Below, piece after piece: positions 8,051 through 26,513 of a DNA stretch of 64,000 nucleotides; position 1 is the stretch's first letter; every line of letters begins with the position of its first letter. Source of the stretch: Campylobacterales bacterium (GTDB lineage: Bacteria > Campylobacterota > Campylobacteria > Campylobacterales > Sulfurospirillaceae); the NCBI GenBank assembly GCA_024280575.1, contig JAJRPV010000018.1, positions 1 through 64,000 of the forward strand. The letters are read 5' to 3'. The notes beneath the pieces were generated by a model that was given only the letters and a program-made list of their open reading frames with translations, was not told the DNA's origin and made no database searches. The translations under genes and the position numbers were made by a program.

Positions 8051-8569
8051 TTAATACAAACCAAATTTAGAATCTGCTCTTTTATATAGGACTCTGACTT
8101 TATCTTCCTTGTCATGAAAGATGATAAACTGTTTATCGCTCTCTTTCAATTCTTCTAATGCTTCGTCTATTTCTATCGGTTTATAACTTTCTAGTTGCAT
8201 AGGAACTATCTCATCTTCGCTATACTCCATCTCTTCTATTTCACCTATTTTTGGTGCCTCTTTGGTTTTTAAGCTGGTTTTTTTATCATGTTGTCTTCTT
8301 AAGACTTTTTTTAGTCTCTCATTTGCCAGGTCAATTGCCGCATATACATCTTTGTCTTTTTGTTTAATGACTACCGTATTCATATGGGCTAAATTTATAG
8401 CAAACTCTACACTAAAACCTTTTTTACCGTTTTTTTCATCAGCTGAAATTACACATCTTACCGAAATGATATCTAAATTGTACTTCTTGAGTGAATCAGC
8501 AGCTCCTTGCACATAATCTTTTAGAGCTTCAGTTAGCTCTATTTGTTTTCCAACGATACTTAAATTCAT
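8051..8569 (-). CDS. hpf: Ribosome hibernation-promoting factor, long form
   Basis: I set the start at the ATG preceded by AAAGGAGACAAG, giving 172 aa; upstream in-frame codons lack a ribosome site. The N-terminal domain (about residues 1-105) has the HPF/YfiA pattern: LSIVGKQIELTEALKDYV, then a basic helix ANERLKKVLRRQHDK. After a variable linker, the C-terminal domain (KPIEIDEALEEL...VLYKRADSKFGLY) is the dimerisation module found only in long HPF. Long HPF links two 70S ribosomes into inactive 100S particles in stationary phase. The gene stands alone between the convergent MCP gene and the pilin operon, whose last gene is 104 nt upstream on the same strand. Confidence 0.92.
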   Translation of the reverse strand: MNLSIVGKQIELTEALKDYVQGAADSLKKYNLDIISVRCVISADEKNGKKGFSVEFAINLAHMNTVVIKQKDKDVYAAIDLANERLKKVLRRQHDKKTSLKTKEAPKIGEIEEMEYSEDEIVPMQLESYKPIEIDEALEELKESDKQFIIFHDKEDKVRVLYKRADSKFGLY

Positions 8570-8582
8570 CTTGTCTCCTTTA

Positions 8583-8632
8583 TCCCTAATAATAGGGAGA
8601 TTTGGGGTAAAATTACCCATGGAAAAAGTATA
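8583..8632 (-). promoter_or_regulatory. Upstream region of hpf: -10-like box and two short inverted repeats
   Basis: On the minus strand TATACT (8627-8632) could be a -10 box about 60 nt before the hpf start codon. Between it and the gene lie GGGTAA-N2-TTACCC (8605-8618) and TCCCTA-N4-TAGGGA (about 8583-8598). These could be operator or leader-RNA elements. No convincing -35 element is visible. Confidence 0.35.
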
Positions 8633-8672: not shown

Positions 8673-9110
8673 TTATGGTTTTTGCAAGGTTCTTCTATGT
8701 AAACGAATAGGCTCGGTTGTAATATTTGGATTTGTTGTTACTATAGTATCAATGATGACTGTACGATTAGAATCATTGGTCGCTACATTGTTTGCATAAG
8801 AATTACATCCTGTGGGGAGTCCATTGCCCATATAATGTATGGTTATATTTATATCATGTGTGTAATTAGAAGTATTTACAGGGTATTTTATATCTATGGA
8901 ATTTAAACAATTTGCACTATAATCATGACCACTCATAGCAAGCAGGGCGAACTCCGTACCACTTTTAGCAAGCAATTCTGCCTGGACTTTTAGATAATCA
9001 TCAGTAGTTGTTTTTGCAGATTGCGTGGATAAACTAAGTGCGAGCATCGATATAGTTGCTCTTACCACCAAAAAAATAACTGCAGTGAGCAAGGAAAAAC
9101 CTTTTTTCAT
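8673..9110 (-). CDS. PilX/GspK/MshP-like minor pilin
   Basis: The chosen ATG at 9110 overlaps the previous stop codon by 1 nt and gives 145 aa beginning MKKGFSLLTAVIF. Cleavage after Gly4 would leave a mature chain with Thr instead of Glu at position 5, as in PilX and GspK pilins that sit at the tip of (pseudo)pili. The rest is a small Thr/Asn-rich globular domain with a Cys pair. An Arg lies inside the hydrophobic helix (FLVVRATISML), where family members have aliphatic residues; this is odd and could be a point error. It is the last gene of the four-gene pilin/adhesin operon. Confidence 0.75.
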   Translation of the reverse strand: MKKGFSLLTAVIFLVVRATISMLALSLSTQSAKTTTDDYLKVQAELLAKSGTEFALLAMSGHDYSANCLNSIDIKYPVNTSNYTHDINITIHYMGNGLPTGCNSYANNVATNDSNRTVIIDTIVTTNPNITTEPIRLHRRTLQKP

Positions 9111-10027
9111 CAGTAAACCACCTTTTCTTTGCAAAATGCAAAATTAAAACTACCACTGAGGTTTGCATCATTTATGCAAAGTTTCATTCTTATTGTATCA
9201 CCGCTTTTTGTAAATTTAAAAGTGCTTACATGCTCCGCCAATACTGAAGTAGTTGCATTTTGGTCATATCTTTCGTTTTCCCAAGGTTGATAATTGTAAT
9301 GCAATGTTAGATTAAAATCATTTGTATTATTACCTTCAGGAACTACAGAATATGCACTCCATGCCAAATCATATTGTTCAAAAATTTCATCTAATCCAGA
9401 AGTGTTTTCATCAAAATTTAAAACATCATTAGTGCCCGCAGTATATGATACTTTATAAGTGTAATTGCCATCAGTCCCATTCCATCCATATTGAGATAAA
9501 TCAAAACTTGTTTGTCCTCTAAAAAGTATAGCAGGCTTTTCTAGTCCATCACCTTTTAATAAACTCACCGTATTGTTTGAAAGTGCCTTTATAATTGCAT
9601 TAGTCGTGTTTAGTTCACTTCCTGGAGTTTTTAGCTTTCCGTAGGTTCCTAAGCTTTTGCTTGTTTGATTACTATCCAAGTCTATAAAACCACTCCATCC
9701 AGGCTTAGAAACTCCTCTTAAACTGTCATTGTCTTTGCCAATCCACTCCAATACCTGATATGAATTATTTGCATCACTTAGCGGTACATAATCACTAAAA
9801 TTTGTATCATTTCTTGCTATTACGCTGTCTTTTATTCTGAATTGCAGTCTTTTTGCTATCTCATTTAGCACGATTTCACTTTGTGCCTGAAGTTTGTTTA
9901 TAGCCCTTGTTTTTATATAGTTTTCATACATTTTTGCGATTATATCCGCTCCGATGCTTGCTACAATGCCAAGAACTACTATCACCATAACCAACTCTAT
10001 CATCGTAAAAGCAGATTTTTTACTCAC
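9110..10027 (-). CDS. PilW-like minor pilin
   Basis: The 305-aa protein begins MSKKSAFTMIELVMVIVVLGIVASIGADII, a type IV prepilin N-terminus. Cleavage would fall after Ala6 (Ala instead of the usual Gly) and leaves Phe1 and Glu5. A long helix continues to about residue 60 and a large globular domain rich in Asn, Asp and Thr follows, with a possible disulfide near the C-terminus (KLCINDANL...AFCKEK). Size and position between PilV-like and PilX-like genes suggest a PilW/GspJ-type minor pilin. Start and stop codons overlap the neighbours by 1 nt on both sides, indicating translational coupling. Confidence 0.8.
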   Translation of the reverse strand: MSKKSAFTMIELVMVIVVLGIVASIGADIIAKMYENYIKTRAINKLQAQSEIVLNEIAKRLQFRIKDSVIARNDTNFSDYVPLSDANNSYQVLEWIGKDNDSLRGVSKPGWSGFIDLDSNQTSKSLGTYGKLKTPGSELNTTNAIIKALSNNTVSLLKGDGLEKPAILFRGQTSFDLSQYGWNGTDGNYTYKVSYTAGTNDVLNFDENTSGLDEIFEQYDLAWSAYSVVPEGNNTNDFNLTLHYNYQPWENERYDQNATTSVLAEHVSTFKFTKSGDTIRMKLCINDANLSGSFNFAFCKEKVVY

Positions 10028-10692
10028 TAGTAAGCCTTTCTTAAAAGTTCACTCTCGCCGATATTACACGAGTATGATCTCACAGTAAAAGGGATACTGT
10101 TCGGTCCCGCAACTTTAAGTGTAAGCATTTTTATGCTTGAAGTTGTTGTACTGGCATTTGTGTCAAATGTAAAGTTTAAATTGGTAGCATTATAATTGGC
10201 ATTGTCTGAAATATAAACGACTTTCGTAGTAAGATTGAAATCAGTAAAATGATAATCAAGCGATGTGGTTTGTGGGCTCAATTCAAGTGTATCAACTCTG
10301 CCGTCAAAATCATCTATATCATCAAGATCTCCACCATCCGGTCCAAGATTTGCCACAGGAGTAGAACTGTTTAAATCAGGAGAAAATCTTCTCCTCTTAT
10401 CTCCTTTTACATGCCCGATTCTTCTGATAAATCCACTCGCTATTGTTGCATTAAGTTCACTGTCTCCATTTGTTTTAAGCACAAAGATTTTATCATCTAC
10501 AAGTGAGTGTTCATCCCATCTATAAGTGAGTGTATCTCCCATCTTTGTCCTGGCTGCTAGAATTATCTCCTGCTGGAGTGTGTAGGCATTGTTGCTTTGT
10601 GTTTTCAGCAAAAGAATAGGCAAAGTCATCACGGCAATACCCATAACGACTATGGCTATTATTAGTTCCAGCATTGAAGCAGCTTTTCTCAT
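10027..10692 (-). CDS. PilV/GspI-like minor pilin
   Basis: The 221-aa protein begins MRKAASMLELIIAIVVMGIAVMTLPILLL. If processed after Ala4, the mature chain starts Ala1 and has Glu5, as required for pilin assembly. The globular part contains Asp/Gly-rich loops and two Thr/Ser/Asn-rich strands, then SYSCNIGESELLRKAY at the end. It follows the giant surface protein directly: the giant gene's TAA shares its last A with this ATG. This places it as the first pilin translated after the adhesin. The prepilin peptidase and assembly ATPase are not in the window. Confidence 0.8.
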   Translation of the reverse strand: MRKAASMLELIIAIVVMGIAVMTLPILLLKTQSNNAYTLQQEIILAARTKMGDTLTYRWDEHSLVDDKIFVLKTNGDSELNATIASGFIRRIGHVKGDKRRRFSPDLNSSTPVANLGPDGGDLDDIDDFDGRVDTLELSPQTTSLDYHFTDFNLTTKVVYISDNANYNATNLNFTFDTNASTTTSSIKMLTLKVAGPNSIPFTVRSYSCNIGESELLRKAY

Positions 10693-13600
10693 TACCAGTT
10701 TAACCTTCTATTTGATCTTTTTGATACATTTGTATCTATTATGTGTCCAAGTTTTCCTTGACCTGCCCAATCTTTTTGATCATCTTGAAATTCCAAAATA
10801 AAATCTTTAGGATCAAATGTAACCCAGTCGGTAGCATTTACATCTATTTTATCAATGTATGGTAAAGATGGTGCCGTAGCTATTATTGTCTCTATGCCAC
10901 CAACTACTCCCGTTGAACTGTATGTTGATAGTGTGGTGCCTTTAACTGGAGTATAATTAGATACATTTCCATCATTTAAATTGCCATGGTAAGTATTTAT
11001 GTACCAATTAACTGAATCTAGGCTTTCTCCCCCTGGCAAATTCATACTGTTTCTATAAGTTTGGTTGCAATCTTTACAGTAAGCTTCATAATAAACTTTT
11101 ACAGTTCCACTGTTTCCGGCAAATCTGTAATCAGGAGCATGTACCCTACCAAATAGATAGTGTAAATCACCAGTACTGTTTATGTCTGTTCCGGTGCCGG
11201 CTGCTACATCAGCATTTGCAATACCAAGATAGCCTGTCATGGAGCCTTTCAAATTTTGTGCATCTATCAAAGCCGGTTGCAGTGGTGTGGTGGCATTTCT
11301 TTCTATCGCCATTCTTATAGTAATTGGTGCTGTACCATTTGCAAACTGATTTTTGTATGCCAGCGTGGACATGGTGTTTCCTACAGTATTTACTGCAGAA
11401 TTGCTTGCTATATTGGTAAGGTTATTTTCATTGGCTATGCTTATATTTAAGTCATTTAGATTTTTACTCTGTGCATTGTAAGATAATTGCATATTAGTAT
11501 TATACCCAAAACAAGTGTTTGAGAAAAAGGAAGTTATGTTGTCATCACTATTTCTCGCTTCAAGGGTTGTTGAAACTTTTGCAAACATAGAATCATTTAT
11601 AGGGTTTAGAACCATATAGGTAAAGTTTCCGCCATTAAAATCTGTAACAGTTGTATTTGTATATGTAAAATGGTCCGGTTCAAAAATAATGGAAGTAGAA
11701 TTTCCATCCGTGCTACAACTGATAAGTCCATCTGCATCACTGCTGTTATTGTCACCGATACTTGTCGTGTTGCAATCGTTAGGTTGATCAATCGCTGTCC
11801 AATTGCTATCTTTCAGTACAAGTTTTACAACGCCCACATTTTTATAATTAAGAGTGTTTGTTGATGCCGCACCATTAGTAAAATTAAGATTGCTTATATT
11901 TAAATCTCCTTGGTTGATGCAAGCATTATTGGTTGAAAAGGTTGAATCAAGCCCAACAGATATGCCATTTCCTTTAACCAAAGAAGCATTATAGTCTTGT
12001 GAGGAGTTTGTGCCATTTATATCAGGTGCACTGATGTTTACAGAGAAAGATTTGGCAGATTTTATTATAGTGTATGCTCCAGAGGTAGAAGTATTTGGAC
12101 CAGACAAGGCCATATTAAATTCTTTTGGTCTAGTTGAAAAATGATCCCCTGCATATGGTGCACTGGCGTTAAAATCATGAGGATATATCTTTGAATCACT
12201 ATAATTTCCATCGGATGATTTTATAGATATATTCATATCAAAACCCAATTCTTTTGAAGCTTTTGGATATGTTGTGTTGTGAGTTAGCCATGTGAAGACC
12301 CCAGTATTTAGAGGAATACCTGTATTTGAATCCACAACAGTTGGATATATATCACTATTTGTACCATTATAAACATCTATGATACGGAGTGAATTTAGAT
12401 ATATCGATGTATTTGCATCTCCTTGATCAAGAGAACTGATTCCGGCTAATGTAAGATTTAAATCAAACGGAGCATTTACAACTTTTGCACCAACACTATT
12501 TCTCCCAATATCTCTTGCAACTATTTCTATATTGTCCCAGTTAAAAGTAACAGGACTAGATTCTATAGGCAAGGAAACTTGAGTTACTGTTCCTCCGGAG
12601 AGATTATAATCAGCAAGAGTCGGATTTGTAAAAGTTATAGACATTTTGTTTTTAAAAGTATGACCAAGAGAGGCATAACCATTGATAGTTGTATTGAATT
12701 CTATCCAGACAAGATTGTTCTTTGGAAATATATCAAATTTATAGACTAGTGAATTATTTACATCACTATAAGTCATATCACTGTAATTACCATCTATGAT
12801 ATTTGAATAACCAGTGCCATTTGCATCCACTGTGGTCAGCGGAGATGTTGCATTGTTTTCTACGAGAGCCTTCAAATGGTCAAAACATTGCGTTCTGATG
12901 GATTCATTATTGTTGTAATTTGGATCAGAACAAGGTGAATTTGTTTCGAGTTCATCAAAAGGAAGTAAGTGTGTAACAATAGAGCTGTTTTCATCATAAT
13001 TAACTTCTTTAGGGAGGTTGTCTAATATATAAACATCCTGTGCAAAGTCATCACCGGTATTTATAACAGTAAGCCTATATTTGACAACATCACCTCTTCT
13101 AAGTAGTGGCAATGGATCACTACAAGGCACCCAGCCAAGTTGAGGACTTATTGTACTTTTGAGTTTAAAACACTCTTTATAAGAATCAATAAAGTCAGGA
13201 GTAAAGATTTGTGTTTGCATAGATAGCATGTGCACAAAAGATTGCTCGCTAGGGTATTCGGTTCCGTCTAGAGTATCAGACTCTTTGACAGAAATAGTTA
13301 CTTGCGTAGAATCCTGTGAATTGGAAAGATAACAAGGCCTTCCGTTAGTATTTGCACAATTGTCACTGCTATCGTATTTGCTATCTAAATTATATTGATC
13401 TATATCATTACCGACATTATAAGAAATATCAGGATTCTTAGATATATTATTGCCAGATACATCTTTTAATGTGATTGTGTCATTAAATATATTGTTTGTA
13501 TTGTTTGTATCTTCTATGATAGCATTTTCACTGTTGTTTTTATTTTTTACAGTCATTCCTTCGAGCGATAACTGCCTATCTCCACCTTGTGTGAAATCAT

Positions 13601-16600
13601 ATAATGATGAATCAATATTACCATGAATTGGGGTTATGAAACCACTGATTGGTATAGGAAGCTGAGTTGTGCCTCCAGGTCCCGGAGGAACCAAATCAAC
13701 AAAACCACTAAATTCTGACAAGTTTTTAAATTTTATTTCTCTGTGATATCTATGATTTATGGAATATGCCACAACCATGCTCCAGCCGCCAAAATAGCCA
13801 TAATCTCTAAATCTTGTCCAAGAAGTTGTTGTTATATTGTTTTCTGTTTTTATGGTTGGAGCCCAGTCAGGATTGTCATCACCCGGGGTTACCTGCATAT
13901 CTGCTACTGTATAAATGCCATTTAGACTTGTGTTTAAATCTTTGATTATATCAGTTATGTCAGCTTTTGCACCATAAAAGATACGATAATTTCCCATGTT
14001 TGCTGTGTTGTTATTTTCATCACCTTTTTTAAAATGGTAAAAATCAGCTCTGTTTTTTAGATTTATGCTGCCATTTAAATCTGTTTTATTTACTGTTATG
14101 CTATGTACTGTGCCATCAGGAGTTATAAATTTTACCGTATTAAACGGGATATTATTTCCTGTTTCATTTTTGTCATTGCCATGAAGATGTCCGCCCCAGA
14201 AAAGACCGGCATACTCTATTGTTATATTGTCATCAGGATTTGATGTATTTACATCTAAAACATGTAGTGTTGCAGAAGATGAATTTGTATAACCTGCTGA
14301 GTTGGCAAAAGTAGAGTTAATCTCATTTAGCTTTTGAGTTCCGGTATAATTATTTGGCACCAGCATAGTGTTTCCTATCACGGCGATATTTCCATATTTA
14401 TTTGCACTGACATCATTGTTGAAGTACTTCAAGGATGGCCTTAAAATATCAATACCGGAAGCCGATGTGTTTGTGTCTATTGAGAGACTTACGCTATTAT
14501 TGCTTAGGTCGGTATCTACTGTTTCGCTTGTTACATTTGCCTCATTTATCAGCCCTGATGCCTCACCGGCAGAAACCATAGTTATATATAATTCTACATA
14601 ATTTCCCATGCTTAAACGATTCATAGAGCATGAAATTGTATTGTTCCCAAGTGTAGAACATGTTGCAGATGAATTTGTTTCATTTGTATTTGTCGATACG
14701 CTATTGTAGCTTAGTCTGCTGTCATAATGATCCATTATAGTGATATTTCTTGCATTTGCCAAGTTGCTGATGTTTTCAACTCTAACAGTATAAACAAATG
14801 CAGATCCGGGATTTGGCTTAACAGGATTGGCTGTTTTTGTAATTTTAAGGTCAGTTCCTATTATCTTGTTATTTGCAGTTCCAGTGTTGTTGCTTGTGTC
14901 AGTATCTGGTTGAACAGGTGTAGCAGTTGCTCTATTTTGTATATTTACCTTATCTACATTTGCCGTTTTTGCATCTACTGTTATGGTTTCAGAATGATTT
15001 TTTTTCAATATAAGAGTGCTTGGATATGTACATGTAAAGTTGTTGTCATTGCTGTTATCGCAGCTTAGATTTGAAGAAGAATTAACAGAAGTATAGTTTA
15101 CATCAGCCGGCAATATATCGCTCAAAGTAAAACCTTTAGTAACTGGCTCGCTGGAGAGATTGGTGATAGTAATAGTATAATTAAGATTAGATTCTGCTCC
15201 AACATTTCCGGATGGATTTGCAGTTTTAACAACTTTTAAATCCACGCCACAGATAGTTTCAGGTCTATCCGTTCCATCATAGTTTTTATCTGCTTTTTCA
15301 AAGTTGTATATGTCATGAACTGCCCTGTCGTCCAAGGCTATATTGTAGATTTCTACTTCATCAATATTACCTTTAAAATTGTTGACATATCCCGCTCCAA
15401 TAAGTAAAGGGTTGCTACTCGCAACAGCATTAGGGTAGTTAGCGTTACCTTCATGTGTTTTTACATTGTTTACATACCATTTTAACTTCATATTGTCTAA
15501 ATCTCTGACCAGACATATATGATTCCAATAATTTTTTGTTAGTGCCTTCCATGTGCCAAACCCTTGGTATGGAGAGCCATTTTTACCGGCTGTTCCATAA
15601 TAATATGATAAATCACCACTGGTTTCCTGGGTTATAGTGCCTTCTCCGCCATAAGCTTTTGCAATTATGTTTTTTCTGCTGTTAAAACTTGTTGGTCTGA
15701 CCCATGCACATATTGTTTGATTTTTAGTAATTTGTAATTTTGAATCTGAAGGCACTTCTACATAATCATCAACCCCATCAAAACTTCCGCTTCTCCATGC
15801 TGTTGAAAAGTTATTGTCATCATATGTAAGGAGGTGATTTAAGGTAACTGCTCCATTTTTCGCTGTTCCATTCAGTCCACTTATGCTATCTACAACCTCT
15901 CTAGATGTTCCATCCCACTTACACTCTTCAAAACGATAATCTACAACAGGTTTTATAGGATATACTTTAACATTTACGCTTGCACTGTGAGAGACTTGAT
16001 TTTCTTGAGGGGTTGATGTTGTTACATCTACACTGCTTGTCAATGGATCTATTGTGGTGTTGGTATCAGGCATTGTGGCTACTATGGTGATGTTTTTGTC
16101 CTGATTAAAGTCTATAGATGTATAGTGGCAAGTTACGGATTGATTTGCATCAGTTAGATTACAATCACTAGCACCAGAAGTGATATATAGGGCATTTATA
16201 GCTTGAGAAAATGTCTGCTTAAGTACCACATTTTTTGCAGTCGAGATATTGATATCTTTGAGAGAGATATTATAAGTGACATTTCTACCTTCTAAAACAT
16301 CTATCGGAGTCGCATCTATGCTTACATTTAAATCAGCTCCTACAACTCTGACATCAGGAGCATAGGCAGTGATAGGATTTTCTATCGAGTTTGAGTTTAT
16401 CACGATTTCATTAGAGTATGTTCCTATACTATCTAGTGGCGCTTGAATATTTAATTTTAATTTACTGTTTCCGTTATATCCAGGAATCAGTGGCTGTGTA
16501 CAAGCAACAGTGCTACCTGTCTCAGTGCAGTTCCAATCGCTGTCACTTCCATTATTGTCAATATATGTCAAATCAGAATTCAATATATCTGTTGAGTTTA

Positions 16601-19600
16601 TATCTAAACCATCATTTTTACCTGTGTTTGTGATATCTAATGTGTATGTATAAATTTCACCAAGCGAAACCAATGTTTTGGAAACATTTAGATCCGTATT
16701 TAGGGTCGCACCTTCTATTTTTAATGCGACACTATCACTGTCATTTGAATTATCAACTTCTATGGTGCTTGTATTTTCATCAGCAGTATTTGTTACCGTT
16801 CCGGCAGAGGAAGGTGATTTGGCAGAAATAAATATATCTGGAGCACTGGTATTTGGTGCCAGTTGAAGTCGATTGCAAGTTATAGTTTTTCCAGAAAGCG
16901 AACAGTTCCAATCTCCCTGATTTGTTATATTAAAATCACTAAATCCTAAAGGAAAAGAATCTTGAAAATTTATATCTTTGGCAACACCTAAGTCGTCATT
17001 TTTGATTGTAAATTTGAAATCTACAGGTTTACCAACACCAACAGTGATATTGTCATCATGATAGTTTCCATCACTTGAAGCATCAGGATCTTTTGCATAT
17101 TTTTTTATTTTTAAATCAGATCCTCTTAGAGATGTTGTTACATTTACTGTTTGCCCAGTAGTTGCATTTGTATCATCTTTTCCTATAACCGTAGCATTGT
17201 TTGTTATATCTCCATTGTAGTTTGGTGCAATTGATGATATTGTTAATTGACTTGAATCTGAACTATTTGACAATGTTGGCAAGTGACATATAAGTTTGGA
17301 GTTTACTGTATCATATGTATCACAACTCCAGCCCGATCCTGTTCCATTTACATCACTCCAACCGTGGTTTGCTCCCATATTATTGAAATTTAAAGTGACA
17401 TTTATATCTTTAGCAGGAGATAAACCCTGATTGTGAATGGTTATATAGTATTCATGATGTCCATAAGCACCAACCGGATTTGGACTTTGTGTAGGGATGC
17501 TTTTAAATATTATATTTGCACCCTGTATATCAGTATCCCAATTAGCAACATTTGGAGAAGAAGTTTCAATTGTACTCGTAGTTGCTTCTACATGATTTCT
17601 AGCTGTTCCTGTGTAGTGTGGAAGAGTGGAGGAAAAAGTAAAGTCTGTAGAAGTGCTTAAGGTTAAATTTTGATCATAGTCAAATCTGATGCTTCCATTT
17701 GCTCCAACTGTAGAAGTAGTCGTCCAGTTTGGATTTGATATATTGCCATCATATGTTGCCCCATTTGGAAGAGTATCTATCACATATACATCTTTTGCAT
17801 CAGCTTGCGCACTTGAATTGGTAACTGTTATATGGTAAATAATATGGTCACTCATACCAGCTGTTGCAGGACCTGTTTTTGCAATGGATATGTCAGTTCC
17901 TTGTGTGGTAGTATCTACATTATCTTTATTGTCAGGAAGAAGCCTTGCTAGTTCAGGAGTGTCGTTTGTAACATTTGCTTCATTTGTTAATACTTCATTG
18001 TTTGTATTTGGTGCGGTCGCATTTATAGTTATATTTGATGGAGTATTTGCAGGGGATATTGTTCCTGAATAATTACATGTAACTATATGTGAGTTTTCAT
18101 TACAGCTCCAATTTGTACCACTTGCACTTGTAAAATTAACATCATTTGGAAGTTTGTCTTTTACAACAATATTGGTAGCGTTTGTGCTTGGTCTGTCATG
18201 TTCATTTGTGGTATTGTTTCTTGGCCAATTTTTAATAGAAAGAGTATAAAAAAACTGCCTATTTGCACCTATCGGGTCTTTTGAGACACTCTTATCTATC
18301 GACATATTGGCACCACGAACCAAAGTGTTTGTGTGCAAGTAGCCATCACCGCCTGTCGGTGCATTGTTGGCTAAATCTTGATCTCCAAAAGAAGTTTCAG
18401 CTTTATATTTGTTTATTACACAATTATTTGTATCATCATCTGTATCAAAATTTGTTGCATCAGGTGCTGTGGAATCCACAGTAGCAACAAGAACCCAACC
18501 ATCAGCAACCTCAAGAGGAGTGTTCTCTCCATCTTTCATCGTACAAAACAGTTTTATACTAAAAGAAGGAGGATGTATGGGGCTTGTGCTACAGTCAAAT
18601 CTTGATTCGGCGGTCAATGAGATATTGGTAACATTGTTTGGAATGATATCAGTAATATTTACATCTGTTATTCCGGGAGGATTTGTGCCACTGATCGGAC
18701 GATTTCGGACATATATTTTATAAGTCAAATTACCATTGATAGCCACATAATTTTCATTTGCTACGTAATATGTGTTATTTATTGTTTTTTTTGCTTGTAA
18801 ATCTATATTTATAACCTGTGTATTTTCTGTTTCAGTATTGTCATCAGGTTGAGCTTCTGATGTATTTGAATCTACTACAGCAGTATTGTGCACGAAACCT
18901 GTAGTTGATGGAGCTTGCACTTTGTATCTTACTATTGTCCCACTATTGTAGCCTGGAGCCATTTCAAAATTTGAATCTTTAGTATTACAGTGAATCAAAT
19001 TTCCTGATTTTGAACACTCCCAATCACTATTTTGGACTTCTAACGGTCCGATATAACTCCATCTATAACCGCTTGTCGGTATTGTATCATTTATCTCAGC
19101 GCCAAAAGCGGATGAAAAACCTTCGTTTCTTACTCTTATATTATAATAATATGTAGAGTTGGTTGCAACAGGATCAGCCGAATCCCATTTATCAAGATTT
19201 AGATCCGCTCCTCTTACATCAAGGTCAACAGAGCCACTATTGTTGGTTGTGTCAGCTTCAAGTGTATCCGAACTTGTTGTTGCGGTATTTGTGTAAGTTG
19301 CATTTGTATTTGGGGCATTTGCCGTGATGGTAAAAGTTTTGGTGTCTCCTTTGGCCAAATCTCCTAAAGTGCAGTGAACAGCTTGTCCCGAGACACTGTT
19401 ACCGTTGTTATCACATCCTGAAGTAGATATATTTGTAAAACCATTTGGTAGAGTATCATCAACATAAGTGTTTTTAGCTTCAGCCAAATCACTGTTTGCA
19501 ACCGTGATTGTATATGTAACTTGCTCGCCTAGTTTTGCCGGATTTGGACTAACTGTTTTTGATATATTAAGATCAGCCCCTCTTATATAAACAGACCTTA

Positions 19601-22600
19601 CGACGGTATTTGTTGTAGCTGTCTCTTTTTCAGCAGTATCTGTTGTTATAACAGCCTCATTATCTCTTTTATTGTCTATTGCACTAAGTGTATTTGGGGC
19701 TTTTGCCTGTATGGTTATGTTGCTTGTTGTTTGATTTTGCGTCAAATCATGTTTATAAGTACAGGAGAAGTGGGTTGAATTGTTTTGATTACAATTCCAG
19801 TCATTGCCGTCATAAGTTAAACTGTTATTAATAAAAGTAAATTTATCACCGGAATTTCCAAGAGTATTATCATCGATTTGAATATTTGTAGCATCTGCTT
19901 CCCATTGATTTTTTACATTTATTGTATAGTTCACCAATCCATTAACTGCTACTTCAGATTTATCCGCAGTTTTATATACAACTATATCAGATCCATGAAT
20001 CTCTATGTCCCAATCTGTATTATCATTTGTAACATTGCTTTGACTAGTACTTGTTTCTGCCACACTGCCGTTTGCTACCTTGCTGTTGCCGGGAAAATTG
20101 CTGTCATAGTTTGGTGCAGTTGCACTTATTGTTATGGTTTTTGTTTCATTTTTTGCTATATCTCCTAGTTGACACTTGTATGGTGAGCCAGTTGTGTAAT
20201 TTGTTCCACCATTGCAGTCGATAAGGATATTTGTAAAATTTGCTGTATTGTTTGTGTTGAAATGGTTTGTAATATTTACATCTTTTGCAGTTGCACTTCC
20301 GTCATTTCTTACTTTTACAGTAAACACTGCATTTTTATTAGCAACGGCTGTTGTGGTTGTAGGCGGTATAACAACTATATCAGCACCTTCAATAATGGTA
20401 TCCGCAGAGTCTGTAACTGTTGGTTGAGGTGTAGTAGTAGTGCTCACACTTGCGTTGTTTGTTCTTGTTCCTAGAGTTGCATTTGTTGGTACATTCACAT
20501 TAAAATGTATAGTAGATGTATCACCTTCCGCTAAAAGAGATGCTTTTGTGCAGGTTAGACTTGATGTTCCGGCTCCACTGCAGTTCCAACCATCAGAATT
20601 CAATACGGAATTTACAGTATATCCGCTACCTAAATTTGAAAGATCATCAGTTATAGTTAAATCTTCTGCGTCAGAATGTGATGTATTTGTAACAGTAATA
20701 TTATAATCAATCAATCCCCCTGCCATTGCTGTAGGGCTGGCTAATTTATTTATATCCAGATTTACTCCGGTTACATTTACTATCGCGCTATCTGTGCCGT
20801 CATTTGAACTTAAGCTATGAGAAACTTTAGCAGTATTTGTTATTTGTCCTGTTGAGTTTGTCGGTGCAGTTGCTTTAAATATCAGGGTATCTGATGAGTT
20901 GCCGGGGAAGTTACTCTTTGTGCAATGAAAAGTTCCTGTGATTGGAGTTGAGGGACAAGTCCATCCGTTAGGGGTTATATTTGTTATCTTAACACCGCTT
21001 GGAAGTTGATCTTCTATGTCAGCATTTGTAGCATTTGCACTGTTTACATTGGCAACATTTATCGTATATGAAAAAGTTTTTCCAAGTCCGACTTCACTTA
21101 CATTTGCATCTTTTGTTATGTTTAGATTTGGTCCGGTTATGTGTGTAGTTGCCGTATCGGTTAGATTGTCGCTGTTTTCCTGGTCTGTATCGGTTGATAC
21201 ACTTGCACTATTGGTTACATCATTTAAGCTATCTGTCGGCATAATTACAGTTACTGTAAAAGATGCATTTGAACCTGAAGTTATATTTCCAAGGTTACAT
21301 GTAAGAGTTTGTCCACTTTGCGTGCATCCTCCTGTATCGCTTGCATAAATCATGTTGGAATCTAATGTGTCTGTTACTGATACATTTTGCGCATCTGCCA
21401 GTCCTGAACCATTTGTAACTTTGATTGTATAGGTATAATTTGTACCTATATCAGTACTTCCATTGTCCGGAGTTTTTACTATGTCTAAGTCCGCACCCTT
21501 TACATGTGTAAGAAGAGAACTGCTGTTGTCACCTGTATCGCTTTCTGTAGAATCAGTTGATATGTTTGCATCATTTGTTATATCCTGATGAGATGAGGGC
21601 ATTGTTACATATATATCCAAATCGTATGATTCGCCATTTGCAAGGCTAGTATTATTTAAAGTACAATTTATTGTGCTAGTACCACTGCATGTCCAGTAAG
21701 TCTTATCATAGCTTGTGGAAATTATACCACTTGGCAGTGTGTCTGTCAATGTAACATTGGAAGCAGGGCTGGCACCATTATTTACTACATGCAGTCTGTA
21801 TGTTACATTACTATCTACTGCAGCATTAGTTGAAGTAATTCCTCCAACAAGAGATTGCGAAAGAACTATATTGGCTAGTTGCACATCAACAGTTGCATTA
21901 GGATATTCTGGCATAGTATTGTAATCAGTTGAGTCTGTATTTGTAGTTGCCGTATTTTTTATATTTGTACCACCGCTGGTTGCTTTTGCAGTTATGGTGA
22001 CAGATCTTGTATTGCTAACATCCAAATCACTTCCACTACATGTGATGGTTCCGTTACTTTGGCTACACCAAGAAGTATCATTGAGAGAGACAAAACTGAT
22101 TTGGCTTGGTAAAGTATCGCTTATAGTTACATTTCTAGCTTTTACAGTTGGATTAGATCCATTGTTCGGATTTGAAAGTTCTATGGTGTATGTAAATTCT
22201 TCATTTAATTGTAAAGTTGTTTTTGATGCTGTTTTTGTAGCATGTAAATTTGATTTTCCGACCTCAAATGTTTTACTGTCAGTATTGTTGGATGTTTGAG
22301 GATCAGTATTGTCTGATAGAGAAACTTCTACATCGGGAGTTATATTACCAACAGAAGAAGGTGCATTTATTTGTAAATCGAGTTGATTTGATGTTTGTCC
22401 ATTTGTTAAGGATCCATTATATGTACATGTGGCAGTTGATGAATCATGAGTGCAACTCCAATTTGTACCGCTAAATGAGTTATAAGTACTTCCGGAGGTA
22501 ATATTGTAAACTACTTGACTGCCGGTAGCATCTAAATTACTACCGGAAGAGTTGTTGTTTGTTATAGTTATGATATTTGAAAATGGCTGGCTGGCTTCAA

Positions 22601-22745
22601 TCGTTGTAGATGGGGCATCTAAAGTTACACTTAAATCAACGGTTGCAGTTCCGGCATATAAAGTAGTAACAAAAATGAAACAAGTAAAAATAAAAGTGTA
22701 TAAAGCGCCCTGAAGTAGATTATGTTTGTAAAATATGGCTTTCAT
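10692..22745 (-). CDS. Giant secreted DUF11-repeat/LamG surface protein, putative pilus-associated adhesin (about 4017 aa)
   Basis: The start ATG at 22745 has GGAGGA 8 nt upstream; a signal peptide ends near Ala31 (TTLYA). About 17 DUF11 (conserved repeat) domains of roughly 129 residues fill residues 35-2230, each opening with a GADLNI-K or similar strand and nearly all with a W-x-C...C pair. A LamG-like concanavalin-type domain spans about 2265-2480 (FDGVDDYVEVP, WVRPTSF, GNIDEVEIYN). Two more DUF11 copies follow to about 2755, then a region with AGLFWGG and YGGW-like motifs, a degenerate DUF11 copy near 3220, and a C-terminal portion (FGRVHAPDYR near 3865) reminiscent of MshQ. No membrane anchor or sorting signal is visible at the C-terminus. 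The three following pilin genes overlap it serially, so a pilus-tip adhesin is the best guess. Confidence 0.9.
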   Translation of the reverse strand: MKAIFYKHNLLQGALYTFIFTCFIFVTTLYAGTATVDLSVTLDAPSTTIEASQPFSNIITITNNNSSGSNLDATGSQVVYNITSGSTYNSFSGTNWSCTHDSSTATCTYNGSLTNGQTSNQLDLQINAPSSVGNITPDVEVSLSDNTDPQTSNNTDSKTFEVGKSNLHATKTASKTTLQLNEEFTYTIELSNPNNGSNPTVKARNVTISDTLPSQISFVSLNDTSWCSQSNGTITCSGSDLDVSNTRSVTITAKATSGGTNIKNTATTNTDSTDYNTMPEYPNATVDVQLANIVLSQSLVGGITSTNAAVDSNVTYRLHVVNNGASPASNVTLTDTLPSGIISTSYDKTYWTCSGTSTINCTLNNTSLANGESYDLDIYVTMPSSHQDITNDANISTDSTESDTGDNSSSLLTHVKGADLDIVKTPDNGSTDIGTNYTYTIKVTNGSGLADAQNVSVTDTLDSNMIYASDTGGCTQSGQTLTCNLGNITSGSNASFTVTVIMPTDSLNDVTNSASVSTDTDQENSDNLTDTATTHITGPNLNITKDANVSEVGLGKTFSYTINVANVNSANATNADIEDQLPSGVKITNITPNGWTCPSTPITGTFHCTKSNFPGNSSDTLIFKATAPTNSTGQITNTAKVSHSLSSNDGTDSAIVNVTGVNLDINKLASPTAMAGGLIDYNITVTNTSHSDAEDLTITDDLSNLGSGYTVNSVLNSDGWNCSGAGTSSLTCTKASLLAEGDTSTIHFNVNVPTNATLGTRTNNASVSTTTTPQPTVTDSADTIIEGADIVVIPPTTTTAVANKNAVFTVKVRNDGSATAKDVNITNHFNTNNTANFTNILIDCNGGTNYTTGSPYKCQLGDIAKNETKTITISATAPNYDSNFPGNSKVANGSVAETSTSQSNVTNDNTDWDIEIHGSDIVVYKTADKSEVAVNGLVNYTINVKNQWEADATNIQIDDNTLGNSGDKFTFINNSLTYDGNDWNCNQNNSTHFSCTYKHDLTQNQTTSNITIQAKAPNTLSAIDNKRDNEAVITTDTAEKETATTNTVVRSVYIRGADLNISKTVSPNPAKLGEQVTYTITVANSDLAEAKNTYVDDTLPNGFTNISTSGCDNNGNSVSGQAVHCTLGDLAKGDTKTFTITANAPNTNATYTNTATTSSDTLEADTTNNSGSVDLDVRGADLNLDKWDSADPVATNSTYYYNIRVRNEGFSSAFGAEINDTIPTSGYRWSYIGPLEVQNSDWECSKSGNLIHCNTKDSNFEMAPGYNSGTIVRYKVQAPSTTGFVHNTAVVDSNTSEAQPDDNTETENTQVINIDLQAKKTINNTYYVANENYVAINGNLTYKIYVRNRPISGTNPPGITDVNITDIIPNNVTNISLTAESRFDCSTSPIHPPSFSIKLFCTMKDGENTPLEVADGWVLVATVDSTAPDATNFDTDDDTNNCVINKYKAETSFGDQDLANNAPTGGDGYLHTNTLVRGANMSIDKSVSKDPIGANRQFFYTLSIKNWPRNNTTNEHDRPSTNATNIVVKDKLPNDVNFTSASGTNWSCNENSHIVTCNYSGTISPANTPSNITINATAPNTNNEVLTNEANVTNDTPELARLLPDNKDNVDTTTQGTDISIAKTGPATAGMSDHIIYHITVTNSSAQADAKDVYVIDTLPNGATYDGNISNPNWTTTSTVGANGSIRFDYDQNLTLSTSTDFTFSSTLPHYTGTARNHVEATTSTIETSSPNVANWDTDIQGANIIFKSIPTQSPNPVGAYGHHEYYITIHNQGLSPAKDINVTLNFNNMGANHGWSDVNGTGSGWSCDTYDTVNSKLICHLPTLSNSSDSSQLTISSIAPNYNGDITNNATVIGKDDTNATTGQTVNVTTSLRGSDLKIKKYAKDPDASSDGNYHDDNITVGVGKPVDFKFTIKNDDLGVAKDINFQDSFPLGFSDFNITNQGDWNCSLSGKTITCNRLQLAPNTSAPDIFISAKSPSSAGTVTNTADENTSTIEVDNSNDSDSVALKIEGATLNTDLNVSKTLVSLGEIYTYTLDITNTGKNDGLDINSTDILNSDLTYIDNNGSDSDWNCTETGSTVACTQPLIPGYNGNSKLKLNIQAPLDSIGTYSNEIVINSNSIENPITAYAPDVRVVGADLNVSIDATPIDVLEGRNVTYNISLKDINISTAKNVVLKQTFSQAINALYITSGASDCNLTDANQSVTCHYTSIDFNQDKNITIVATMPDTNTTIDPLTSSVDVTTSTPQENQVSHSASVNVKVYPIKPVVDYRFEECKWDGTSREVVDSISGLNGTAKNGAVTLNHLLTYDDNNFSTAWRSGSFDGVDDYVEVPSDSKLQITKNQTICAWVRPTSFNSRKNIIAKAYGGEGTITQETSGDLSYYYGTAGKNGSPYQGFGTWKALTKNYWNHICLVRDLDNMKLKWYVNNVKTHEGNANYPNAVASSNPLLIGAGYVNNFKGNIDEVEIYNIALDDRAVHDIYNFEKADKNYDGTDRPETICGVDLKVVKTANPSGNVGAESNLNYTITITNLSSEPVTKGFTLSDILPADVNYTSVNSSSNLSCDNSNDNNFTCTYPSTLILKKNHSETITVDAKTANVDKVNIQNRATATPVQPDTDTSNNTGTANNKIIGTDLKITKTANPVKPNPGSAFVYTVRVENISNLANARNITIMDHYDSRLSYNSVSTNTNETNSSATCSTLGNNTISCSMNRLSMGNYVELYITMVSAGEASGLINEANVTSETVDTDLSNNSVSLSIDTNTSASGIDILRPSLKYFNNDVSANKYGNIAVIGNTMLVPNNYTGTQKLNEINSTFANSAGYTNSSSATLHVLDVNTSNPDDNITIEYAGLFWGGHLHGNDKNETGNNIPFNTVKFITPDGTVHSITVNKTDLNGSINLKNRADFYHFKKGDENNNTANMGNYRIFYGAKADITDIIKDLNTSLNGIYTVADMQVTPGDDNPDWAPTIKTENNITTTSWTRFRDYGYFGGWSMVVAYSINHRYHREIKFKNLSEFSGFVDLVPPGPGGTTQLPIPISGFITPIHGNIDSSLYDFTQGGDRQLSLEGMTVKNKNNSENAIIEDTNNTNNIFNDTITLKDVSGNNISKNPDISYNVGNDIDQYNLDSKYDSSDNCANTNGRPCYLSNSQDSTQVTISVKESDTLDGTEYPSEQSFVHMLSMQTQIFTPDFIDSYKECFKLKSTISPQLGWVPCSDPLPLLRRGDVVKYRLTVINTGDDFAQDVYILDNLPKEVNYDENSSIVTHLLPFDELETNSPCSDPNYNNNESIRTQCFDHLKALVENNATSPLTTVDANGTGYSNIIDGNYSDMTYSDVNNSLVYKFDIFPKNNLVWIEFNTTINGYASLGHTFKNKMSITFTNPTLADYNLSGGTVTQVSLPIESSPVTFNWDNIEIVARDIGRNSVGAKVVNAPFDLNLTLAGISSLDQGDANTSIYLNSLRIIDVYNGTNSDIYPTVVDSNTGIPLNTGVFTWLTHNTTYPKASKELGFDMNISIKSSDGNYSDSKIYPHDFNASAPYAGDHFSTRPKEFNMALSGPNTSTSGAYTIIKSAKSFSVNISAPDINGTNSSQDYNASLVKGNGISVGLDSTFSTNNACINQGDLNISNLNFTNGAASTNTLNYKNVGVVKLVLKDSNWTAIDQPNDCNTTSIGDNNSSDADGLISCSTDGNSTSIIFEPDHFTYTNTTVTDFNGGNFTYMVLNPINDSMFAKVSTTLEARNSDDNITSFFSNTCFGYNTNMQLSYNAQSKNLNDLNISIANENNLTNIASNSAVNTVGNTMSTLAYKNQFANGTAPITIRMAIERNATTPLQPALIDAQNLKGSMTGYLGIANADVAAGTGTDINSTGDLHYLFGRVHAPDYRFAGNSGTVKVYYEAYCKDCNQTYRNSMNLPGGESLDSVNWYINTYHGNLNDGNVSNYTPVKGTTLSTYSSTGVVGGIETIIATAPSLPYIDKIDVNATDWVTFDPKDFILEFQDDQKDWAGQGKLGHIIDTNVSKRSNRRLNW

Positions 22746-22917: not shown

Positions 22918-23301
22918 TTAATTTTTTATATAATCAGATATATTTTCTGTTAAACCGTAATTTTTATATTTACTTTCCTCAAGTAAAACTTGAGCTACCA
23001 GTTTTTTTTCTTTATTGAAAACCAAAGGTGCCAAAAAGTTTACAACAGATGTTTCTATAGGATTTGATACTATCATTATGTTATAAACTAATGGTTTTGA
23101 ATCTCTATCTAACTCTAGTAAATCTTTAAAAAAATCCGGTACTATAAAATCATAATCTCTGACTAGAAATGGATTGATTAACATAAAAACAGTTTCGTCC
23201 TCACAGCTTTTTAGTTTGTAGAAAAAATCATCTACTTTTTCCAACTCTACATTTTTAATTTGTTCAAAGCCTAATATCGGTGCTTTTACACTAAATGCCA
23301 T
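22918..23301 (-). CDS. fliW: Flagellar assembly factor FliW
   Basis: The 127-aa acidic protein matches FliW: an N-terminal KAPILGFEQIKNVELE segment, the central FMLINPFLVRDYDF, and a C-terminal NFLAPLVFNKEKKLVAQVLL. FliW binds flagellin and the translational repressor CsrA; free FliW releases CsrA from flagellin mRNA, linking flagellin supply to its synthesis. It lies upstream of the giant adhesin gene on the same strand and divergently from bamD, in the fliW-bamD-lon neighbourhood known from Campylobacter. The 136-nt gap to bamD holds promoters for both directions. No csrA gene is in the window. Confidence 0.93.
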   Translation of the reverse strand: MAFSVKAPILGFEQIKNVELEKVDDFFYKLKSCEDETVFMLINPFLVRDYDFIVPDFFKDLLELDRDSKPLVYNIMIVSNPIETSVVNFLAPLVFNKEKKLVAQVLLEESKYKNYGLTENISDYIKN

Positions 23302-23437: not shown

Positions 23438-24082
23438 ATGAAGATTTTAAAAGTTTTAGTTTTAAGCATTTTTTTACTGTTGATTAACGGTTGTTCTACC
23501 AAAGACAAGGTGGAAGTTTATAACAAACCTGCTATTTACTGGTATGATCAAATCACAAAAGAGATTAAAAATCAGGATTTGGAAAAAGCTGATGATTATT
23601 TTACTTCACTTTCTAGCGAACATGTAGAGTCCCCGCTTTTAAAAACAAGTATGCTTATACTTGCGAATGCTCATATGGAAGAAGAAGAGTATATCCTGGC
23701 TAATTTTTATCTTGATGAATATATAAAACGATATGGCGATAGAAAAAACAGTGAATATGCCAAATTTCTCAAAATAAAAGCAAATTTCGATTCTTTTTCT
23801 CACCCAGACAGAAATCAACAGTTGACTATAGATACAATCAGAAATACAAAGGAGTTTTTAAGTGAATATCCAAATTCTGTCTATAATCCTATGGTAAATA
23901 CTATATTAGTTAAATTAAGACTTGCAAATCTTCAAACAACTAAAGAGATAGCAAGCTTATATAAAAGACTCGATAAACCAAAAGCTTATAAAATTTATGA
24001 AAGCAAGATAAAAAAATCTGCCTTAAATGATGCAAATATGATAAAACCACATGTTCCTTGGTATAGAGCATGGTTTGAATAA
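23438..24082 (+). CDS. bamD: Outer-membrane assembly lipoprotein BamD
   Basis: The 214-aa protein starts with a lipoprotein signal peptide (hydrophobic core, then LLINGC with the acylated Cys near residue 19). TPR-like helical repeats follow: KPAIYWYDQITKEIKNQDLEKADDYF, the AHMEEEEYILANFYLDEYIKRYG pair and a YPNSVYNP helix. BamD is the essential lipoprotein of the BAM complex that inserts beta-barrel proteins into the outer membrane. The C-terminal PHVPWYRAWFE is typical of the Campylobacterota proteins. A purine-rich ribosome site (AAAAAGGA) precedes the ATG, and lon starts 10 nt after the stop codon. Confidence 0.92.
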   Translation: MKILKVLVLSIFLLLINGCSTKDKVEVYNKPAIYWYDQITKEIKNQDLEKADDYFTSLSSEHVESPLLKTSMLILANAHMEEEEYILANFYLDEYIKRYGDRKNSEYAKFLKIKANFDSFSHPDRNQQLTIDTIRNTKEFLSEYPNSVYNPMVNTILVKLRLANLQTTKEIASLYKRLDKPKAYKIYESKIKKSALNDANMIKPHVPWYRAWFE

Positions 24083-24092
24083 GGATTCTTCT

Positions 24093-26513
24093 ATGCAGAT
24101 AAATAACTACAACAAATTTCCGGCTACTTTGCCTATCATAGTTGAGGATAATCTTTTTTTGTATCCCTTTATGATTTCACCTATTTTTCTCTCTGATGAT
24201 GAAAATATAGAAGCAATCAATGATGCGTTAAGTAACAATACTCTCATAATGGTTTGCACCACAAAAATAGGCGAAGAGGGCGGAAGAGATTTTAACTCTA
24301 TCTATAAGTCAGGTGTTATAGGCTCTATTATGAGAAAAGTTGAACTTCCAGATGGTAGAATCAAAGTTCTTTTTCAAGGGATGCTTAAGGGAAGAATTGT
24401 CGAAGAAATTGGCGAGAAACCCCTAAGAGCTATTGTGGATGTGATGAAAAGTACAGATTTGCACTCGCAAAAAGGAGAGGCTATGTTGGCACTCTTAAAG
24501 GAAAAGATAAATATACTTTCTCATATAAGTAGTTATTTCCCGCCTGATTTACTTAAAACCATAGAAGAAAACAGAGAAACAAATAGGATTTGTGATTTAG
24601 TAGCAAGTAGCATGCGTCTCAAAAAAGAGAGTGCTTATGAACTGTTTGTGATTGAAGATGAAGAAGAACGATTGTTAAAATTGATAGAGTTTGTCTTGGC
24701 TGAGATTGAAACAAGTAAACTTCAAAGAGAGATAAAAACAAAGGCTCACTCACAAATAGATAAGATAAATAAAGAGTATTTTTTAAAAGAGCAATTAAGA
24801 CAGATACAAAAATAACTTGGAACTGACAATCAAAGAAATGAAGAGATACAAGAGTATAAAGATAAACTCGAAGCTAAGAAAAAATATATGAGTGAAGATG
24901 CATACAAAGAGATATCTAAGCAGATAGATAAGCTCTCTCGTATGCATCCAGACTCTAGCGATGCCAGTATGATACAGAGTTATCTAGATTGGGTTATTGA
25001 AATTCCATTTGAAAAAACGGCAAAGAAAAAACTTGATATTCTGGATGTAAGAGCTCAACTAGATCGCGATCACTACTCACTTGAAAAGCCAAAAGAGAGA
25101 ATAGAAGAGTATTTTGCCGTGAGAGAATTAATAGCCAGAAGAGGGATAAAAGATAAAAATGCAAAAGGCGCAATCTTATGTTTCGCAGGCCCTCCGGGTG
25201 TAGGTAAAACCTCACTTGCAAACTCAATCGCAACAGCACTGAAGAGAGAGCTTATCCGCATTGCTTTGGGAGGACTTGAAGATGTTAATGAGTTAAGAGG
25301 GCACAGAAGAACTTATATCGGTGCGATGCCAGGTCGCATAGTCCAAGGACTTATAGAAGCAAAAGAGATGAATCCAGTGGTAGTTTTGGATGAGATAGAC
25401 AAAGTTGCCAGAAGTTACAGGGGTGATCCGACAGCAGTTTTACTTGAAATCTTGGATCCTGAACAAAACAATAAATTTAGAGATTATTACCTGAATTTTA
25501 ATCTTGATTTGAGCAAGGTTATATTTATAGCAACTGCAAACAATATAGGCTCAATTCCGGCACCTCTTCGAGATAGGATGGAATTTATATTTTTAAACTC
25601 TTATACTCCTCAGGAAAAGTACGAGATAGCTAAAAAATACCTGTTTCCTCAAGAGTTAAAAAAGCATGGTCTTAAGCACTCTGAAGTTTCTATAACAAAA
25701 GCTACAATGGAAAAAATAGTAGCAAATTATACTAGAGAATCTGGTGTAAGAAATCTACGAAGAAGAGTAGCTGAGATTTTAAGAAAATGTGCAAAAGAAT
25801 TGCTTGTTGATCCGTCTATTAAAAAAATAACAATTAACCATAAAAATATATCGGATTATTTAGAAAAAACAGTATTTGAGATAGAAGAAAAAGATAAAAC
25901 CAATCAAATAGGTCAAGTCAACGGATTGGCTTGGACTAGTGTTGGTGGAGATGTTCTCAAGATTGAAGCAATAAAAATACAAGGAAAAGGATTGCTTCAA
26001 CTCACTGGCTCGCTAGGTGATGTTATGAAAGAATCAGCTAGAATTGCGCAAAGCGTGGTAAAAGTTTTGATTGACAATAAAAAGTTAAATATCCCTCTTT
26101 CTATCATACCAAAGTCAGCAAAAACAAAAGATGCAGAGACCCCAAAGGTAACTCCTAGTGATGTTTATAGAAGGTTTGATTTGCATATACATGTACCCGA
26201 AGGTGCAACTCCAAAAGATGGACCAAGTGCAGGGATAACTATGGCTACGGCTATTGCATCAATCCTGTCAAATAAAAAAGTAAGAAGCGATGTTGCTATG
26301 ACGGGAGAGTTGACTCTTAGTGGAAAAGTTTTACCGATAGGTGGATTAAAAGAAAAACTCATTGCGGCTTTTAAAGCCAAGATAAAGACAGTTCTTATTC
26401 CAAAGAAAAACTATGAAAGAGACTTGGAAGATATTCCGGAGGAAGTAAAAGAAAAGATGGAATTTATCCCAGTAACTAAGATAGAGGAAGTTTTAAAACA
26501 CGCACTTGTGTAA
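24093..26513 (+). pseudogene. lon: ATP-dependent protease Lon, interrupted by an in-frame TAA at codon 241
   Basis: From ATG 24093 (AAGGA upstream) the frame encodes the LON substrate-binding domain up to RQIQK, then meets TAA at 24813-24815. Reading on in the same frame gives [10 protein letters not shown] and the complete remainder, so one base (GAA Glu to TAA) explains the break at the conserved QIQKELG motif. Downstream the AAA+ module has GPPGVGKTS (near residue 370) and LDEIDKV, and the protease domain has PKDGPSAG with the catalytic Ser near 712 and the Lys dyad partner in [13 protein letters not shown]. An internal start at 24888 could yield a 541-aa N-domain-less form. Options are sequence error, true loss of Lon, or a truncated protein. 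Confidence 0.88.

Follow-up and report, generated by a model that had tools for sequence, protein, structure and literature searches.

Four consecutive genes in a free-living relative of Campylobacter probably encode a complex that primes an MSHA-type type IV pilus and sits at its tip. The first encodes a 4,017-aa secreted protein, and the next three encode prepilins. Sequence comparisons suggest that the preliminary description of a tip-adhesin and priming complex is largely right, and they sharpen it to an MSHA-type (Msh) tip module in the order MshQ-MshD-MshO-MshP. The window is the whole 64,000-nucleotide stretch that was analysed, from contig JAJRPV010000018.1 of assembly GCA_024280575.1 (genome G000, contig C20), and all coordinates refer to it unless another contig or locus is named. 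The giant is designated Q and the three prepilins V, W, and X, in operon order. The module, its parts, and its two flanking genes are as follows.

22918 to 23301, minus strand: FliW, a flanking gene with conserved synteny, outside the pilus module
10692 to 22745, minus strand: Q, the giant (4,017 aa), a putative tip adhesin of MshQ type with a signal-peptide-like N-terminus
14420 to 22640, minus strand: variable part of Q, DUF11 stretches interrupted by one LamG, mostly unaligned in orthologues (occupancy 0.01-0.29)
15318 to 15779, minus strand: LamG of Q, concanavalin A-like, residues 2328-2481 of the ORF counted from 22760, near the conserved core
10692 to 14408, minus strand: conserved MshQ core of Q, the last ~1,220-1,240 aa, conserved across orthologues and with PF20419 in orthologues
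10695 to 10763, minus strand: C-terminal tail of Q (ends SKRSNRRLNW), the best conserved stretch and the proposed dock onto the minor pilins
10027 to 10692, minus strand: V, prepilin in the MshD/PilV position, 221 aa, TAATG overlap with the giant
9110 to 10027, minus strand: W, prepilin in the MshO/PilW position, 305 aa, GTG start, TAGTG overlap, N-methylation motif
8673 to 9110, minus strand: X, prepilin in the MshP/PilX/GspK position without Glu5, 145 aa, TGATG overlap
8051 to 8620, minus strand: Hpf-like ribosome hibernation factor, a flanking gene with conserved synteny

Q starts at the ATG at 22745, with GGAGG upstream. The four-ORF layout is as the preliminary description gave it, with a 1-nt overlap at the Q-V (TAATG), V-W (TAGTG), and W-X (TGATG) junctions. 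In homologous loci, 1- or 4-nt overlaps join V to W in 80 of 100 cases and W to X in 83 of 101, and because the overlaps recur, the operon coupling exceeds chance. In the X ORF (8673-9110, minus strand), an Arg interrupts the hydrophobic helix (FLVVRATIS) at a position that is hydrophobic in the relatives listed; this Arg may be a sequence error. The lon gene (24051-26513, plus strand) is split by a single in-frame TAA at 24813 into parts of an otherwise collinear Lon of ~800 aa. It is one ORF in relatives, and the TAA is either a sequence error or a real nonsense mutation.

Q combines a conserved C-terminal core with a variable N-terminal part. A Pfam search of the giant finds DUF11 at E 5e-171 in 19 stretches and a single Laminin_G_3 match at E 2e-22, in agreement with the roughly 20 DUF11 repeats and LamG first described. 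Almost all DUF11 repeats contain a pair of cysteines spaced 8-16 residues apart, which is predicted to form a disulfide. The cross-genus alignment of Q covers only the last ~1,220 residues, of which the final ~500 are the DUF6701/MshQ region, and leaves the N-terminal 2,800 unaligned. Complete orthologues are mostly about 800-2,200 aa, and the variable part in 24 Q proteins contains DUF11, Calx-beta, LamG, Ig, cadherin, PKD, or beta-helix domains. The ~2,800-aa DUF11/LamG extension is found only in this genome, one congener, and one genome of another family. The DUF11 array, first described as a repeat shaft, is a variable add-on to the MshQ core, seen in three genomes. The closed genome of G009, from the same genus, encodes a collinear 4,061-aa protein with 64% identity to the giant, and a blastn self-search finds no DNA-level repeats inside the giant gene. 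Together these results rule out an assembly artefact built from repeats, and the lack of DNA-level self-similarity also rules out a recent repeat expansion.

The core of the giant is homologous to MshQ, as judged from its orthologues. The window protein itself has no DUF6701 match in the Pfam search, even at E 10, so homology is drawn from orthologues and a reverse profile search. The gene at the same locus of G043 matches DUF6701 (PF20419) at E 5e-24 (8e-23 for L046, which is the G043 locus) and aligns to residues 3515-4017 of the giant at 8e-40. In G030 and G022, fragments immediately preceding W also match DUF6701. A profile of 40 Campylobacterota Q C-termini retrieves proteobacterial proteins of 1,071-1,591 aa, including L125 (1.9e-17), L114 (2.7e-8), L119 (2.4e-6), and, more weakly, L126 and L116. 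The retrieved proteins carry DUF6701 at 1e-79 to 1e-140, most of them with LamG or lectin domains. The MshQ-like C-terminus of the preliminary description is thus upheld by PF20419 matches in orthologues and by the profile link to proteobacterial MshQ, although Pfam is silent on the giant itself, and DUF6701, the mark of the MshQ class in an MSHA tip module, is found through orthologues only.

Proteobacterial MshQ genes mostly lie directly after the MshO and MshP prepilin genes. The adhesin-first order, once taken as a distinguishing trait of this locus, is nevertheless the norm in Campylobacterota and also occurs in gammaproteobacterial loci: a DUF6701 gene precedes the C-D-O-P prepilins in L126, and a 1,295-aa gene stands at the equivalent place in L110, probably another case. 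These loci rule out a unique gene order. The organisation had been likened to either pilVWX-pilY1 or mshOPQ; homology at the adhesin and at MshO supports the msh half of that comparison, and the protein belongs to the MshQ class rather than to PilY1. PilY1 membership is ruled out by the absence of a PF05567 (PilY1 C-terminal domain) match in the giant. PF05567 has no match genome-wide either, but control genomes also lack one, so that wider absence is weak.

Among the minor pilins, W resembles MshO, whose gene immediately precedes those of MshP and MshQ in proteobacterial msh operons. The W profile matches this MshO gene, with part of the signal coming from the shared prepilin helix. V and X resemble their proteobacterial counterparts in position, size, and prepilin N-terminus only. 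The module has adjacent MshO- and MshP-type minor pilins, and X is short and without Glu5. In the W tree, type-B sequences form a single clade (100/99), as do those of proteobacterial MshO (100/100); type A tracks taxonomy for the most part, and the branch uniting all of it is weak (68/16).

Structure predictions describe a pilin-like W and an Ig-like adhesin core. The W model (pLDDT 93) has a long N-terminal helix and a large beta-rich head. A Foldseek search of this model against the PDB gives no significant match, with T2SS pseudopilus chains appearing only at E 0.66 and 2.0. The model of the Q C-terminus is of moderate quality (pLDDT 73) and tandem Ig-like. Its nearest solved folds include the bacterial adhesins antigen I/II (C-terminus) and FdeC, at low TM-scores, and a sequence search of the core against the PDB finds no match. 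The last 23 residues of Q are the best conserved yet are predicted to be disordered in the monomer, a combination suggestive of a tail that binds a partner. Proteobacterial MshQ likewise has a short conserved tail at its end, with a different sequence.

The module is widely conserved at one chromosomal site. In the family Sulfurospirillaceae, 37 of 44 genomes contain a full or partial match to W at 46% identity or more, and W occurs in 72 of 150 sampled genomes of the class, representing 25 of 39 genera. The lon-bamD / fliW-Q-V-W-X-hpf synteny holds throughout Sulfurospirillaceae and, with local changes, in Sulfurimonas, Sulfurovum, and the Campylobacter family. In Sulfurovum loci L077, L091-L093, L095-L098, and L100, an MshA-like major pilin gene (about 211-236 aa) lies directly after X and before hpf. 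An adhesin gene followed by three prepilins is a widely recurring arrangement: the four genes Q-V-W-X adjoin one another in 81 of 108 W contexts. A few named loci duplicate G-handle genomes, so the counts given here for W contexts and for gene overlaps are slightly inflated.

The history of Q differs from that of its neighbors. Across 48 loci carrying all six genes (Q, V, W, X, hpf, and bamD), the Q tree has 5-7 of 45 splits in common with each of the other five trees, which share 9-23 with one another. Within Sulfurospirillaceae, L047 and L048 are 85% identical in W and 42% in the Q core, and L042 and L043 are 47% identical in W and 59% in the Q core. Because AU tests reject almost all foreign topologies whichever gene is examined, the ranking alone was used: on the alignments of V, W, and X, the Q topology comes last of six by a wide margin (delta lnL 1268, 2133, and 883, compared with 525, 1116, and 316 for bamD). 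G115, from another family, encodes a 4,078-aa DUF11/LamG giant with the same domain order as that of the window. This giant is closest to the window's (511 bits, versus 174 for L145 of its own family), and the W of G115 groups with its own family. Because the Q tree conflicts with those of the pilins and flanking genes, these data are consistent with the adhesin gene having been exchanged at a fixed site next to pilins that stayed in place. Q evolves fast, and part of the tree disagreement may therefore be noise.

The genome (~2 Mb) encodes two Msh machineries and a T2SS. Both Msh sets have MshL, MshM, MshE, and MshG, and both MshL secretins score above the NCBIfam MshL cut-off (TIGR02519). 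The type-A set, I-J-L-M-N-E-G, lies at G000:C20:65.6-74.9 kb, 43 kb beyond the window module. The other msh locus, at C26:86.5-101.6 kb, is complete in its machinery and reads Q (cut by the contig end)-V-W-X-H-I-J-K-L-M-N-E-G with two major pilins, and this type of locus is seen whole in L170. The C26 ATPase has an MshE-type c-di-GMP motif (NF053729) that does not appear among the matches listed for the C20 ATPase at that threshold. The C26 msh locus also contains a short ORF of near-identical tandem peptide repeats (FFSATAVASVARELFRNLLPEQDDSKNK; L009 10851-11225, minus strand). A prepilin peptidase, present in 9 of 9 relatives searched, was not found in this draft genome. The Msh secretins and machinery remove one refuting condition of the preliminary description, a genome lacking any T4P or T2SS assembly machinery.

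The tip module is unlinked to its presumed type-A machinery, and their pairing rests on co-occurrence. Type-A MshL is present in 22 of 22 near-closed (50 contigs or fewer) Sulfurospirillaceae genomes with window-type W, and among the near-closed genomes of the family, type-B W is accompanied by type-B MshL in 6 of 6 cases. The match between W and MshL is looser in more fragmented drafts, and G007 has the type-A secretin and lacks W.

From these features we infer a tip position, docking site, export route, adhesive role, and ligand for Q. The three minor pilins, equivalents of MshD, MshO, and MshP, would start the filament in the inner membrane. The giant would be exported by Sec and fold in the periplasm, forming about one disulfide in each DUF11 repeat, then dock through its conserved C-terminal core and tail on an MshO/MshP cap. 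The growing pilus would push it out at its head through the MshL secretin, driven by machinery whose genes lie elsewhere in the genome, most likely the type-A set at C20. Since LamG lies beside the core, the distal part would be the DUF11 array, standing off the pilus end as a variable fibre that may bind a surface, matrix, or cell; from the domain number, its length is estimated at roughly 80-100 nm. In V. cholerae, loss of the putative adhesin MshQ reduces the MSHA on the cell surface (PMC7096442). The Myxococcus pilus is primed and capped by PilY1 and minor pilins, with a conserved C-terminal base (PMC7541494).

It is possible, though on balance doubtful, that the type-A filament works chiefly in DNA uptake (competence) and represents the free-living form of the Cts system known from Campylobacter. 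V, W, and X would then be its minor pilins, and the giant a tip protein for capture of DNA or matrix rather than for adhesion to cells or surfaces. Type-A machinery is complete in Campylobacter-family genomes, in the order I-J-K-L-M-N-E-G, and the C. jejuni genes ctsD, ctsP, ctsX, and ctsE have consecutive locus tags (cj1474c-cj1471c; PMC8308473). By gene order and these tags, the type-A machinery may be the counterpart of the Cts locus. In C. jejuni, ctsT (cj1077) lies after proC (cj1076) (PMC8308473), and in several families V-W-X occupy the same site, after proC or fliW. Within the Campylobacter family, some genomes have kept Q (798-1,696 aa) and others retain V-W-X without it, so Q is dispensable for some filament functions. 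The domains of Q proteins (LamG, Calx-beta, cadherin, Ig, and PKD) are nonetheless adhesin-like, and adhesion and uptake are compatible in one pilus. There is about an even chance that a split MSHA-type pilus extends across Campylobacterales, with MshQ variants (Calx-beta, cadherin, Ig, LamG, or 4,000-aa DUF11) as an exchangeable cassette beside fixed minor pilins. In Campylobacter, the same machine would have become, or would also serve as, a DNA-uptake device that kept the minor pilins and often lost the adhesin.

An improbable reading makes the prepilins T2SS pseudopilins and the giant a secreted T2SS substrate that is not carried on a pilus. A T2SS with GspD above the cut-off is present on contig C50, but these gsp genes, on a contig other than that of the module, come with their own GspG-, I/J-, and K-like pseudopilins. 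The paralogous C26 module is moreover joined to msh rather than gsp genes, and W is nearest to MshO. Even less probable is that the giant is an ordinary DUF11 surface protein sharing an operon with pilins by chance. DUF11 proteins are common and mostly uncharacterised, and the giant DUF11 extension is lineage-restricted; against this, Q precedes the pilins in 86 of 108 contexts with or without DUF11, its core belongs to the DUF6701/MshQ class, and the arrangement is repeated in two paralogous systems.

As an MSHA-type tip complex, the module supplies a candidate tip for Campylobacterota MSHA-type pili, in which MshQ, traded at a fixed site, resembles a receptor-binding module in its behavior. 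The V-W-X genes at the ctsT site encode candidate minor pilins of the Campylobacter DNA-uptake machine. If shown, a 4,017-aa tip protein would be cargo of unusual size for the secretin of a type IV pilus and would test how such a chain exits.

The closest known system is the MSHA tip encoded by mshD-O-P-Q in Photobacterium, Marinobacter, Vibrio, and Shewanella. Both share a DUF6701-class adhesin core, an MshO-like and a short MshP-like prepilin, a tight operon, and MshI-to-MshG machinery. Here, by contrast, the adhesin gene comes first, the tip module lies apart from its presumed machinery, and the adhesin has 4,017 aa with a DUF11 array, whereas those of the proteobacterial loci compared have 1,045-1,591 aa. 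PilY1 with FimU-PilVWX of type IVa pili is similar in its large secreted protein and minor pilins, conserved C-terminal base, and variable N-terminal domain; it differs in that the giant and its genome have no PF05567 match and the predicted core of the giant is tandem Ig-like. For Campylobacter Cts, the likeness lies in a type-A machinery present in Campylobacter-family genomes and in V-W-X occupying the corresponding chromosomal site, but the adhesin is shorter or missing in the Campylobacter family. Epsilonproteobacterial MSH systems were already predicted by Denise et al. 2019 (PMC6668835), whose main text does not mention MshQ and describes MSH as almost always a single locus, whereas type A here is split. 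These systems belong to the same machine family and phylum. No description of this tip module turned up in a literature search for MSHA pili of Sulfurimonas or Campylobacterota. Within the literature searched, the split type-A layout with its conserved tip module, the 4,000-aa DUF11 MshQ, the adhesin exchange, and the tie to the Cts locus appear to be new.
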